24,043 nt of DNA from a virus. Made by a program: the position numbers and the translations under genes. The notes under the pieces were generated by a model. That model worked only from the letters and a program-made list of their open reading frames with translations, ran no database searches and was not told the origin of the DNA. The DNA lies in IMG/VR virus record IMGVR_UViG_3300025085_000188, positions 1 through 24,043 of that record. The stretch is one strand, 5' to 3'. Of this stretch, positions 16,777 to 21,965 are shown piece after piece (position 1 is the stretch's first letter; every line of letters starts with the position of its first letter).

Positions 16777-16891
16777 ACTAATAATTATTCTTATTGTTAC
16801 ATTCTTAAGTGGATGTAAAAGCCCTAGATTATCCGACCGATGTGCTGACAAGGGTCATGGTATCTGTCCGATCTGCAACCACATACACTAA
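16766..16891 (+). CDS. 41-aa lipoprotein with Cys/His-rich mature part
   Basis: ATG at 16766 gives a classic lipoprotein signal: MKTK, a hydrophobic helix (LIIILIVTF), and the lipobox LSGC with Cys17 as the lipid-bearing residue. After cleavage only 25 residues remain, with Cys26, His31, Cys34, Cys37, His39 and His41; CPICNHIH could bind a metal or form disulphides. The TAA shares its last base with the next ATG (TAATG). Small phage lipoproteins such as T5 Llp block receptors against superinfection; outer-membrane spanins are also tiny lipoproteins but usually Pro-rich and next to Rz. Exclusion is my preferred guess; it is not shown. Confidence 0.7.
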   Translation: MKTKLIIILIVTFLSGCKSPRLSDRCADKGHGICPICNHIH

Positions 16892-17535
16892 TGAAAATAT
16901 TAATAGCTTGCGAATATAGCGGTGCAGTCCGTGACTCTTTCATTAAACAAGGTCACTATGCAATGTCATGTGATTTGTTGCCCACTGATTCTCCTGGACC
17001 ACATTACCAAGGTTCTGTTTTTGATGTTATAAACGATGGTTGGGATATGATGATTGCTCATCCACCTTGTACTTATTTAGCAGTAAGTGGAAACAGATGG
17101 TTGTACAATAAAGATAAGTCAAGAAATGAGGAGCGATGGAGGAATAGAGGGGAGGCTTTGGACTTTGTACGATTACTTATGGATGCTCCTATAGAAAAGA
17201 TAGCAATAGAAAATCCTGTTAGTGTTATAAGTTCAGAGATTAGAAAACCTGATCAGATCATTCAGCCTTGGCAATTCGGAGATGAGGCACAAAAGACTAC
17301 CTGTCTATGGTTAAAGAACCTAGCTAAGTTAAAGCCTACAAAGATTGTCGGTAAGGGTGAATTTACTACTTTTAAAAGTGGAAAGAGACACCCTAAATGG
17401 TACGCTGATGCACTTGCTAAAGCTAAGACAAAAGCAGAAAGACAAAAACTACGCAGTAAAACATTTCAAGGTATTGCAGATGCAATGGCAGAGCAATGGG
17501 GAGTTAAAACAACTAAACAACTGGAATTGATATAA
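16891..17535 (+). CDS. DNA cytosine-C5 methyltransferase-like protein
   Basis: The 214-aa protein has the order of C5-methyltransferase motifs: a SAM-binding start ILIACEYSGAVRDSF (motif I-like), an acidic CDLLPTDS loop, the HPPCTYLAVSG catalytic loop with Cys60 (motif IV), and AIENPV at 105-110 (motif VI, usually ENV). It is far shorter than restriction-type enzymes and I do not see a target-recognition domain or motif VIII (QxRxR). Such short forms are common in phages. It could methylate phage DNA against host restriction, or act on another substrate. It begins on the last base of the lipoprotein stop and ends on the first base of the next ATG. Confidence 0.72.
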   Translation: MKILIACEYSGAVRDSFIKQGHYAMSCDLLPTDSPGPHYQGSVFDVINDGWDMMIAHPPCTYLAVSGNRWLYNKDKSRNEERWRNRGEALDFVRLLMDAPIEKIAIENPVSVISSEIRKPDQIIQPWQFGDEAQKTTCLWLKNLAKLKPTKIVGKGEFTTFKSGKRHPKWYADALAKAKTKAERQKLRSKTFQGIADAMAEQWGVKTTKQLELI

Positions 17536-18722: not shown

Positions 18723-18942
18723 TAACGACGAAGATTACGAGTTCGTTGAGAAGTATGGGTGGAAGGCTTTCTCTGAGGAAGTCAATGAAGCATTTGAAAT
18801 ATTCTTTCAGAACACTGAGCTAGGATATGATAAGGATGGCAATGTAATTAGAACAGATAAGAAAAGAGTACATCCTAGACAGAATAACAATGACTTTCTA
18901 TTCGGAAAATACACAAAGAAATGCAAAACGAAGAAGCATTAA
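18715..18942 (+). CDS. Hypothetical protein preceding the RNA polymerase (75 aa)
   Basis: The product is MSSNDEDYEFVEKYGWKAFS followed by a helix (EEVNEAFEIFFQNTEL), GYDKDGNVIRTDKKR, and a basic tail (KYTKKCKTKKH). The GYDKDGNVIRTD loop resembles the GYGYDRDGSIEK loop of the zinc-ribbon protein at 17599, perhaps a shared small motif. It overlaps the RNA polymerase gene, so it is likely coupled to it. Confidence 0.6.
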   Translation: MSSNDEDYEFVEKYGWKAFSEEVNEAFEIFFQNTELGYDKDGNVIRTDKKRVHPRQNNNDFLFGKYTKKCKTKKH

Positions 18943-21293
18943 TGGTACACCTTGGCAAAGCCAGGTACAACAAAGCTAAAACACTACGAGAAAACAACAA
19001 TTTATTATCCGAAAATCCTAGCTATAAAAAGTTAGCTGATTCAATGCACGCAGATGTTGCAAGGGTAATAGGTAAGTTCTTTGATGATTGCTCTGAGCAG
19101 GGATCACCTTGTCCAGTCTGGTTGCCTTTGTTATGGGATTTAGATGCAGATGTAGTTGCTTTCCTAGCGATCAAACGAGCTATGGATTTACTGGATGGTA
19201 AGGACATGACCTTTGCCTATGTATCTTTTGAATTAGCAAAGGCAATAGAGGATGAAGTACGAGTCCGTTACTTTAAAGACTATGTGGACACGAATACATG
19301 GAAGCTGTTACAGAGAGATAGGAAGAATATAAAATCAAGGCAAAGATTTGTTGACAAGTTCTGGATTAGAGAAAAGAACTTACACTCAAAAGGAAGGTAC
19401 GAACGCTTTAAGCTATGGACTCAAAAGAACAAGGCTAAGATTGGTGCTTGGTTGTTTGAGATCATAAGGATGCAGACTAACTTGTTCTCGCTTAAAAGCG
19501 TACGTGTCCGTGATGGAAAGTATATAAAAAAGATAGCACCGAATCCCAAGCTACACGCATGGATTAAGCAGTACGATGAAAACTCTGAATGTCTCCGTCC
19601 TTTTTGGTTAGCTACTTCTGAAGAACCTGTAAAGTGGATGGGTAATTACGGAGGTGGATACCTGAGCGATGAACTTCCCATGCTTCCTATAATGAAGAAT
19701 GCTTATGACATTGATAACAGAGACTTTAGTAAGTTATATGAACCATTAAACAAGCTTCAAAGTGTAGCATATAGAATGAATGTGAAGCAATATGAAGTGA
19801 TGTTACGCTTATGGGAGGGTGATGTGTCCGTAGGGTCTATGGAAAAGCGTGAGTTATTACCTTTGCTTGAACCAATTGAGAACTTAAAAGAGAAAGACCC
19901 TGAAGCATTTAAAGCTTGGAAAAGAGAAGCTAAATATGTACATGATTGGAACTTAGAAACAAGTGGCAGGAGACTTAGATCACTGCGTATAATGTATGTT
20001 GCAAAGCTATATAGTAAGAAGGAAAAGTTTTACTTTCCATATCAAGTTGATTACAGGGGCAGGGTATATACTGTGCCATCCTTTGTCAGTCCACAGAGCT
20101 GTGACTTAGGAAGGAGTTGCATTGAGTTTTACGATGGTGTACCAATCAAGAATGAAGAGGATGCCAGGTGGTTAAAGATACACGGAGCTAATGTATGGGG
20201 AAGGAAGGGTACATTTGAGGATCGTATTGCCTGGATAGAACAGAATACAAAAGAGATAATTACAATAGCTAATGATCCATATAATTATAAATTGTGGCAT
20301 GATGCATCCGAGCCTTGGGCTTTCCTTGCCTTTTGTTTTGAGTACGCAGCGTTCAAGAAGGAAGGCTATGGATTCTTAAGTCACTTGCCTTGCAGGATGG
20401 ATGCTAGTTGCAATGGAATACAGATATTATCTTTGTTATTAAAGGATGAAAAGATAGGCAAGCTAACTAACTTAGTACCTAATCTACCACCACAAGATGT
20501 ATACCAGCACATAGCTGACAGGGTTAACAAGAACTTACACAGAGCTAAGAACAGACAGAGCCTAGCAGGTGACTGGTTGAAGTGGGGAATAGATAGGAAG
20601 TATTGTAAAAGGATAGTTATGACTAAGCCTTTCGGAATGAATGGATACACAAGTACCTTTGAACTTGAATCTGTATTCTTAAGTGAGCTTAGGAATGGAA
20701 GGAGTAATCCTTTCAGCAAGAGTGAATACTTAGAAGCACTCCTTTATCTTTCAACTGTGATTAACAAGCAAACAAATATTGTACTTGAAAACCACATAAA
20801 TTTTATGAAGTGGATCAAGTCAGTAGTGTTAGGATGTAATGATACTTTGAAGTGGGAGACACCATTCGGACTAGAGATTCAACAACACATTCACGAGTCA
20901 GTTCAGATTGGATTGTATTCAGTATTAGGAATGGAAAAGACAACTCTTAATTACAGAAGGGATAAAGATAATGTTGATCCTAAGAAGCAAGCTAAAGCAG
21001 TGGTTGCCAACTACATACACAGCATAGATGCAAGTGTTGTACATTTTTTAGCTTGCAAAGCTGACTACGATGTTTCAACTATACATGACTGCTTTGCTAC
21101 TCAAAGCCCAAACGCACCGAAGATGCACAGAGATTTAAGAGAGATATATAAAAACATTTTTAACCAAGACCTCACTGAAAAGTTCAAGGGTGAGTTATTG
21201 AAACAAACTGAGAACACAGAAGTTGCAGACAGCTTTGAACTTGGCACATTAGATGTGTCAGCAATTAACGACTGCCACTACATGTTCTCTTAA
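18921..21293 (+). CDS. Single-subunit DNA-directed RNA polymerase (T7 gp1-like)
   Basis: The 790-aa protein (T7 has 883 aa) carries all core motifs: DYRGRVYTVPS, motif A RMDASCNGIQ (Asp494 = T7 Asp537), motif B KYCKRIVMTKPFG (Lys563 = Lys631; Phe571 at the Tyr639 position), NYIHSIDAS (His700 = His784) and motif C TIHDCFAT (Asp723 = Asp812). It ends CHYMFS, like the FAFA foot. The N-terminus lacks about 50 residues of the T7 promoter-binding domain. The specificity loop differs from T7, so its promoters should too. The longest start is at 18921; an ATG at 18942 overlapping the previous stop (TAATG) is equally credible. It transcribes middle and late genes. Confidence 0.97.
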   Translation: MQNEEALMVHLGKARYNKAKTLRENNNLLSENPSYKKLADSMHADVARVIGKFFDDCSEQGSPCPVWLPLLWDLDADVVAFLAIKRAMDLLDGKDMTFAYVSFELAKAIEDEVRVRYFKDYVDTNTWKLLQRDRKNIKSRQRFVDKFWIREKNLHSKGRYERFKLWTQKNKAKIGAWLFEIIRMQTNLFSLKSVRVRDGKYIKKIAPNPKLHAWIKQYDENSECLRPFWLATSEEPVKWMGNYGGGYLSDELPMLPIMKNAYDIDNRDFSKLYEPLNKLQSVAYRMNVKQYEVMLRLWEGDVSVGSMEKRELLPLLEPIENLKEKDPEAFKAWKREAKYVHDWNLETSGRRLRSLRIMYVAKLYSKKEKFYFPYQVDYRGRVYTVPSFVSPQSCDLGRSCIEFYDGVPIKNEEDARWLKIHGANVWGRKGTFEDRIAWIEQNTKEIITIANDPYNYKLWHDASEPWAFLAFCFEYAAFKKEGYGFLSHLPCRMDASCNGIQILSLLLKDEKIGKLTNLVPNLPPQDVYQHIADRVNKNLHRAKNRQSLAGDWLKWGIDRKYCKRIVMTKPFGMNGYTSTFELESVFLSELRNGRSNPFSKSEYLEALLYLSTVINKQTNIVLENHINFMKWIKSVVLGCNDTLKWETPFGLEIQQHIHESVQIGLYSVLGMEKTTLNYRRDKDNVDPKKQAKAVVANYIHSIDASVVHFLACKADYDVSTIHDCFATQSPNAPKMHRDLREIYKNIFNQDLTEKFKGELLKQTENTEVADSFELGTLDVSAINDCHYMFS

Positions 21294-21323: not shown

Positions 21324-21965
21324 ATGGCAATAAAAGCTAGAACAAAACATCCACAAATAGTAACACCAGTTGGTACTGCAAAGTATCCTAATGTCAACAC
21401 ACCTAACACTAGGTTTAATGATCAAGGTGAGTTTACCTGTGATATAATAATAACAAAGGAAGAAGCTGCTGCTTTAAACTTACAATTCCAACCTTTATTT
21501 GATGCTGAATACCAAGCTAAGTTGGAGGAGTTAGGAAAGCAAAAGCTTAAGTTATCTGATCCACCTGTGCGTGAAGATGATGATGGTAATTGGGTAGTAA
21601 AAGCAAAGTTAAAGAATGTATTAGCTGGTGCTTACAAGAACGGAGATCCAAGACCTGCAAAGTCTATTGCATTGTACGATTCAAAAGGTAAGCCACTGAA
21701 AGATACATTGGTAAGAGGTGGATCAAAGGTTAAGTTAGCAGTTCGTCCTAGGTTTTGGTATGTTGCATCAACTGGTTTTGGAATGAGCCTTGATTTGTTA
21801 GCAGTCCAAGTAATCGAGTTAGGAGATGGTGGTCTGAGTGATAAAGCAGCTGAAAGCTTTGGCTTTACTGAAGTTGAAGGCGGCTATATTAACGGAGGTG
21901 AATCACTTGAAGGAGCACTCGATGCCGAAGAGGAAGAAGAAGACATCATCAAAGCAGACTTTTAG
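21324..21965 (+). CDS. Single-stranded DNA-binding protein (T7 gp2.5-like)
   Basis: The 213-aa protein (T7 gp2.5 has 232 aa) begins MAIKARTKHPQIVTPVGTAK, with strands typical of the gp2.5 OB fold (GEFTCDIIIT, then WVVKAKLKNVLAG). It ends in the family's hallmark acidic tail with a terminal aromatic residue (EEEEEDIIKADF), which in T7 contacts the polymerase and helicase. It coats single-stranded DNA and aids annealing. This gene has one of the best Shine-Dalgarno sequences in the window: AAGGAG at 21309-21314, followed by GAGAGAG before the ATG, suggesting high expression. It overlaps the endonuclease start by 44 nt. Confidence 0.93.
   Translation: MAIKARTKHPQIVTPVGTAKYPNVNTPNTRFNDQGEFTCDIIITKEEAAALNLQFQPLFDAEYQAKLEELGKQKLKLSDPPVREDDDGNWVVKAKLKNVLAGAYKNGDPRPAKSIALYDSKGKPLKDTLVRGGSKVKLAVRPRFWYVASTGFGMSLDLLAVQVIELGDGGLSDKAAESFGFTEVEGGYINGGESLEGALDAEEEEEDIIKADF

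Follow-up and report, generated by a model that had tools for sequence, protein, structure and literature searches.

Can a phage transcription polymerase do without the tyrosine by which enzymes of its type tell ribonucleotides from deoxyribonucleotides? The question is raised by a 24,043-base virus contig with T7-like gene order (analysed at its full length and referred to as the window), whose RNA polymerase carries phenylalanine at the position of T7 Tyr639. In T7, the ring of this tyrosine stacks on the hybrid and gates substrate loading, and its hydroxyl senses the 2'-OH (PMC9836923, PMC11617373), which it does through Mg at the pre-insertion site (PMC9836923). Tyr639 and Gly542 are regarded as conserved determinants of the choice between RNA and DNA substrates in phage-type RNA polymerases (PMC11617373, PMC4411677).

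The RNA polymerase gene matches PF00940 (E 4e-70, 237 bits, gathering cut-off 22), PF14700 (35.6 bits, gathering cut-off 30.1) and phrog_414 (E 8e-174). An AlphaFold model computed with 40 aligned relatives as input (pLDDT 88, pTM 0.83) superimposes on T7 elongation complexes with Z 42-45, the structural matches including 8dh5 (Z 45.2) and 1s76 (Z 42.5, 760 residues aligned at 3.5 A). In this model, the O-helix (559-571) ends at its C-terminus with F571. The MAFFT alignment with T7 pairs Y639 with F571, K631 with K563, H784 with H700, D537 with D494 and D812 with D723; R425 (R381), R627 (R559), M635 (M567), Y571 (Y528), G542 (G499) and H811 (H722) are also kept. An earlier note, made from the letters alone, had placed Phe571 at the Tyr639 position and had listed Lys631, His784 and both catalytic Asp as retained, and the alignment bears out both statements, with an agreement well above chance. 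The positions in the window are as follows:

18921-21293, + strand: T7-type single-subunit DNA-dependent RNA polymerase, 790 aa (open reading frame, profile matches and AlphaFold model)
20205-20207, + strand: Lys429, equivalent to T7 Lys472; every member of the Phe clade has lost the neighbouring Asp471 by deletion (WGR-KG versus GVDK)
20400-20417, + strand: motif A, D494-ASCN-G499; D494 is the catalytic Asp (T7 D537) and G499 corresponds to T7 Gly542
20607-20636, + strand: motif B and end of the O-helix, KRIVMTKPFG (MAFFT alignment to T7, model)
20610-20612, + strand: Arg564, equivalent to T7 Arg632, ribose contact; Arg in the window, Lys or Thr in other clade members
20631-20633, + strand: codon TTC, Phe571, equivalent to T7 Tyr639, the gate and ribose-sensing residue (alignment to T7)
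20637-20642, + strand: Met573-Asn574, the pair that follows Phe-Gly; invariant among Phe-clade enzymes and all but missing from Tyr enzymes
21018-21020, + strand: His700, equivalent to T7 His784, 2'-OH contact, kept
21084-21089, + strand: His722-Asp723, equivalent to T7 H811-D812, catalytic, kept

The catalytic set of a T7-type RNA polymerase (D494, D723, K563 and H722) is therefore present, whereas Tyr639, described as catalytically essential and conserved (PMC4411677), is replaced by Phe571 here and throughout the clade. Since the fold, the profile matches and all the catalytic Asp, Lys and His residues are kept, Phe571 is treated as a variant site and the T7-type membership stands. The real start of the gene may be Met8 at 18942, which would make the Phe residue 564 instead of 571, because Met8 is invariant in the Phe clade and forms a TAATG overlap with the stop of the upstream open reading frame (18940-18944).

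The enzyme serves transcription in an uncultured T7-like phage that is probably marine. Genes for internal virion proteins, tail fibre and TerL are followed by small genes and then by the RNA polymerase, 3' of which lie ssb, endonuclease I, primase-helicase and the start of a T7-type DNA polymerase. TerL, ssb, endonuclease I, primase-helicase, tail fibre and family A DNA polymerase, the last complete in related contigs only, place the phage among the Autographiviridae, and by TerL and primase the closest named genomes are marine members of this family (Ayaqvirus S45C18, Roseobacter CRP phages). One of the small genes, a DNA methyltransferase-like open reading frame at 16891-17535, matches phrog_757 and shares 46% identity with a putative DNA methylase of S45C18; it has no Pfam match. 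A crude search of the whole window for repeated 22-mers between genes revealed no T7-like promoter set.

The phenylalanine is shared by the relatives of the window enzyme. VMTKPFG is the motif in all relatives at 79-99% identity whose sequence reaches the site, and VMCKPFG is found in a sister clade at 51-52% identity and in a third Phe group (L240, L241) at 56-58%. In IMG/VR, the Phe clade comprises three RNA polymerase sublineages that are 51-58% identical to each other, and all members covering the gate site have Phe, in 35 distinct motif-B neighbourhoods. Among the distinct DNA contexts, the codon is TTT in 42 and TTC in 8, with no Tyr codon, and dN/dS within the clade is about 0.08-0.1. 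Judged from these sequences, Phe is kept by purifying selection. As one base change would restore Tyr and the divergence is deep, its retention points to selection that favours Phe or, in this background, disfavours Tyr.

These data leave little room for an artefact or a neutral oddity, that is, a sequencing error, a decaying gene or drift at an unconstrained site. The earlier note had named Tyr in all close homologues as the sign of such an error, and all of them turned out to have Phe. The window itself is single-contig data, the one point found in favour of an artefact. Against it, Phe recurs in tens of independent contigs from many metagenomes, it is encoded by two codons in intact 790-aa frames, and outside the clade Tyr is found without exception (135/135). 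Sequencing error and pseudogene were rejected on the Phe homologues, the codon counts and the dN/dS of about 0.1, and an explanation of this kind is scarcely credible.

The gate residue was surveyed across IMG/VR, some phage records and bacterial contigs (one GTDB genome set), which together gave 279 distinct RNA polymerase sequences. Tyr is present in 244 and Phe in 35, with no other residue, a proportion that is not a frequency because about 120 loci were retrieved by a Tyr-requiring pattern; before these were added, 133 Tyr rows stood beside one Phe clade. The Tyr side was clustered to the 135 representatives used for comparison. In some bacterial genome contigs (L189, L191, L194, L209), the homologues are split across several frames and are apparently decaying prophage copies. 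Three degenerate DNA patterns for a Phe motif B, run on 2.9 million IMG/VR contigs, gave RNA polymerase matches in the Phe clade only, the remaining hits being chance matches outside RNA polymerases; a fourth, VMVxPFG, had no match in IMG/VR, and the Tyr form of one motif-B pattern had at least 120 there. Candidates for independent Phe origins elsewhere (L210-L215, L404-L409) had no RNA polymerase match by HMM, and the VMTKPFG matches outside the clade (L036, L043, L047 and others) belong to other proteins. About 2,600 of the named phages in the collection have an RNA polymerase, with at most 31% identity to the window enzyme, and all those sampled have Tyr at the gate. The comparison of motif B across marine phage RNA polymerases, suggested in the earlier note, gives Tyr in the sampled marine phages and confines Phe to the clade.

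Two trees were built, one of 145 rows with FastTree and one of 36 rows with IQ-TREE (LG+C20), motif B columns removed. In both, the Phe rows form one clade with support 100 and one state change, and the stem leading to it measures about 1.0-1.3 changes per site. L255/L083 (33-34% identity, KAPCMVKPYGG) are among the nearest Tyr relatives, the mixture tree leaving the exact sister order undecided. The clade thus carries a true, fixed and single-origin natural equivalent of Y639F in a T7-type RNA polymerase. A full-text literature search found no report of a natural Phe at the Tyr639 position, which is weak evidence of absence, since most subscription journals lie outside its coverage.

The gene encoding this enzyme is more diverged than its surroundings. 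Across the Phe-clade phages (G001, G002, G006, G009; L396-L403), TerL is 87-92% and primase 85-95% identical, whereas the RNA polymerase is 51-57% identical between sublineages. This disparity indicates that, within genomes otherwise much alike, the RNA polymerase gene either is exchanged or evolves fast, and that Phe survives each exchange. The ssb gene (21324-21965) switches independently between two types (53% or 92%). The pattern suggests allelic exchange of both RNA polymerase and ssb, which might serve to switch promoter class.

Beyond the gate, the pocket was compared with that of T7, whose pre-insertion site grips the triphosphate through D471, K472, R627 and K631 and the ribose through R632 and the Mg-bridged Y639 (PMC9836923), and in which G542 leaves space for the 2'-OH (PMC11617373). 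Eighty columns are at least 85% conserved in Tyr enzymes and five of these are broken in the Phe clade (P270A, the D471 deletion, Y639F, F733L and V735I), F733L and V735I being common to L255 too. The D471 deletion removes one residue (window 20202-20210) in the whole clade. Five Tyr-gate representatives, including the near relative L255, have Ser, Gly or a gap at the D471 position. R632 is Arg in 129 of the 135 Tyr representatives and Lys or Thr in most Phe-clade sequences. The G542 equivalent is Gly in all 241 Tyr enzymes and Ala (DASCNAIQIL) in 4 of 33 Phe-clade sequences, that is, in four distinct sequences from six contigs (L074/L222, L077, L078/L233, L079/L228, L229, L239); to judge from the sequences, the change probably arose once. 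H784 and R425 are invariant in the clade. On these comparisons, the pre-insertion site looks rebuilt, with the insertion-state contacts kept.

The remodelled site proposed in the earlier note is upheld in part, although on other residues than those it had cited. L637K and A638P, the two changes it had offered in support, do set the window enzyme apart from T7 but do not separate Phe from Tyr enzymes, and neither counts as evidence: most Tyr representatives (96 of 135) have Pro638, and Lys637 is found in Tyr enzymes too, the nearest relatives (KAPCMVKPYG) among them. The site looks remodelled instead at the D471 deletion, R632K/T, the G542A subset and the fixed Met573-Asn574.

The functional meaning of the Phe can be approached through engineered enzymes. 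T7 RNA polymerase discriminates rATP from dATP about 120-140 fold, and Y639F brings this down to 5-7 fold (PMC9836923), in agreement with the weakening described in the earlier note; Tyr-to-Phe changes lowered 2' discrimination in SP6 (PMC13286181), Syn5 (PMC4538805), KP34 and VSW-3 (PMC9624206). The effect has the same direction in all five enzymes with tests found (T7, SP6, Syn5, KP34 and VSW-3), which have diverged to <30% identity. On this ground, the most likely reading, and one we consider probable, is that of an enzyme of the Y639F type which arose in nature and checks the ribose less strictly at the pre-insertion stage.

According to this reading, the otherwise invariant gate Tyr would have changed to Phe once, in the ancestor of the clade. 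Phe keeps the ring and lacks the hydroxyl, so that the stacking on the hybrid, with its role in gating and translocation, would be retained and the sugar-sensing half alone would be lost. The Mg-bridged contact to the substrate 2'-OH could then not form at the pre-insertion site, and sugar choice would rest on the insertion-state contacts of His700 and Arg381, together with the cellular excess of rNTP over dNTP. The enzyme is predicted to behave like T7 Y639F, being active on rNTPs and readily using 2'-fluoro or 2'-amino substrates; its ribose discrimination would be lower than in Tyr enzymes by about one order of magnitude or more. Its product would be mostly RNA, as cells hold far more rNTP than dNTP; given a 6-fold selectivity and an assumed pool excess of 20 to 100 fold, dNMP would be expected at 0.2-0.8% of positions. 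More tentatively, the lineage may have taken apart its ribose check at the pre-insertion site (through Y639F, the missing D471, a looser R632 and partly G542A), relying on other checks or on substrate pools, with transcripts that contain appreciable dNMP in vivo or with a different sugar-selection mechanism.

What speaks against a Y639F-type enzyme is that the clade is old and strongly diverged, which could have allowed time for compensation. The VSW-3 Y578F change lowered the yield of native RNA (PMC9624206), so the bare substitution should cost something unless it is compensated. Nor does any gene seen in the related genomes point to an increased dNTP supply, the 37-39 kb contigs showing no ribonucleotide reductase open reading frame. 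A compensated pocket would keep normal ribose selection, the role of the hydroxyl having passed to other changes. Candidates for these are the Met573-Asn574 pair, the loss of D471, Ile at T7 position 633 and a more stringent check by His700 and Arg381 in the insertion state. The long stem branch and the clade-specific fixed residues around Phe would fit such a pocket, as would the invariance of H784 and R425, and the survival of the clade shows that the enzyme works. However, the Tyr-to-Phe change alone was enough to lower 2' discrimination in the five tested enzymes in spite of their divergence, and R632K/T and the loss of D471 look like loosening rather than like a new hydrogen-bond donor. 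Tyr576 (T7 F644), considered as a substitute tyrosine, was rejected, as it is no special replacement: Tyr occupies this position in 58 of the 135 Tyr-gate enzymes too. Compensation, the second alternative given in the earlier note, is the main rival, although it is judged rather unlikely.

It is much less probable that low ribose discrimination is itself the selected trait, yielding functional RNA with dNMP or other 2'-modified residues. The imagined benefit would be more nuclease-resistant transcripts or better primers for the DNA polymerase, with G542A as a second step in some members. Such a trait would be consistent with the fixation of Phe over deep divergence, with the restriction of G542A to the Phe background (4/33 versus 0/241) and with the origin of modified-RNA T7 variants from the randomising of R425, G542, Y639 and H784 (PMC4551944). 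However, the association with G542A is weak given its probable single origin, no ribonucleotide reductase or unusual nucleotide gene was seen in related contigs, and the DNA polymerase of these phages is of the ordinary T7 type (RDQAKTFIYGFLYG). A raised dNTP pool was likewise set aside as the cause, no ribonucleotide reductase open reading frame having been seen in the related 37-39 kb contigs; the Tyr relatives CRP-125 and S42-C7 carry this enzyme. A matching odd motif B in the DNA polymerase was also looked for and not found, the motif being of the ordinary Tyr762/Tyr766 type.

A group of uncultured T7-like phages carries naturally the change that was engineered in T7 to accept DNA-type or sugar-modified building blocks. 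In nature, a check between RNA and DNA that was regarded as essential seems on this showing to have been lost or replaced. With a natural clade that alters both Tyr639 and Gly542, the ribose selection needed by a transcription polymerase becomes open to direct experiment, and matched natural Phe and Tyr enzymes are available for comparison. Moreover, the Phe enzymes offer scaffolds for 2'-modified RNA in which Phe has been kept and tuned by evolution, not forced onto a Tyr enzyme.

Among known systems, the closest in kind is the engineered T7 Y639F (the T7 R&DNA polymerase type), with which the window enzyme shares the residue at the same place, H784, R425, K631, both catalytic Asp and the fold (Z 42-45). 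It differs in being natural and 25-27% identical, its sugar selectivity being predicted, and the Phe clade adds the D471 deletion, the relaxation of R632 and, in some relatives, G542A. The best phage matches are the single-subunit RNA polymerases of Syn5, HTVC pelagiphages, Ayaqvirus S45C18 and LUZ100 (26-31% identity). In the marine phages Syn5, HTVC and S45C18, the RNA polymerase is likewise followed by ssb, endonuclease I, primase-helicase and family A DNA polymerase. However, all those sampled have a Tyr gate, and almost all Tyr enzymes keep D471 and Arg632, in contrast to the Phe clade. The sister group L083/L254/L255/L256 (IMG/VR, 33-34% identity) has KP before the gate residue, as in the window enzyme, and Ser already at D471, but differs in its Tyr gate (KAPCMVKPYGG) and in Ala at R632. 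Finally, the T7 variants VRS (G542V/H784S) and FA (Y639F/H784A) were changed within the same sugar-selecting set (R425, G542, Y639 and H784), in which the Phe clade has altered Y639 in all members and G542 in some, but never H784 or R425.
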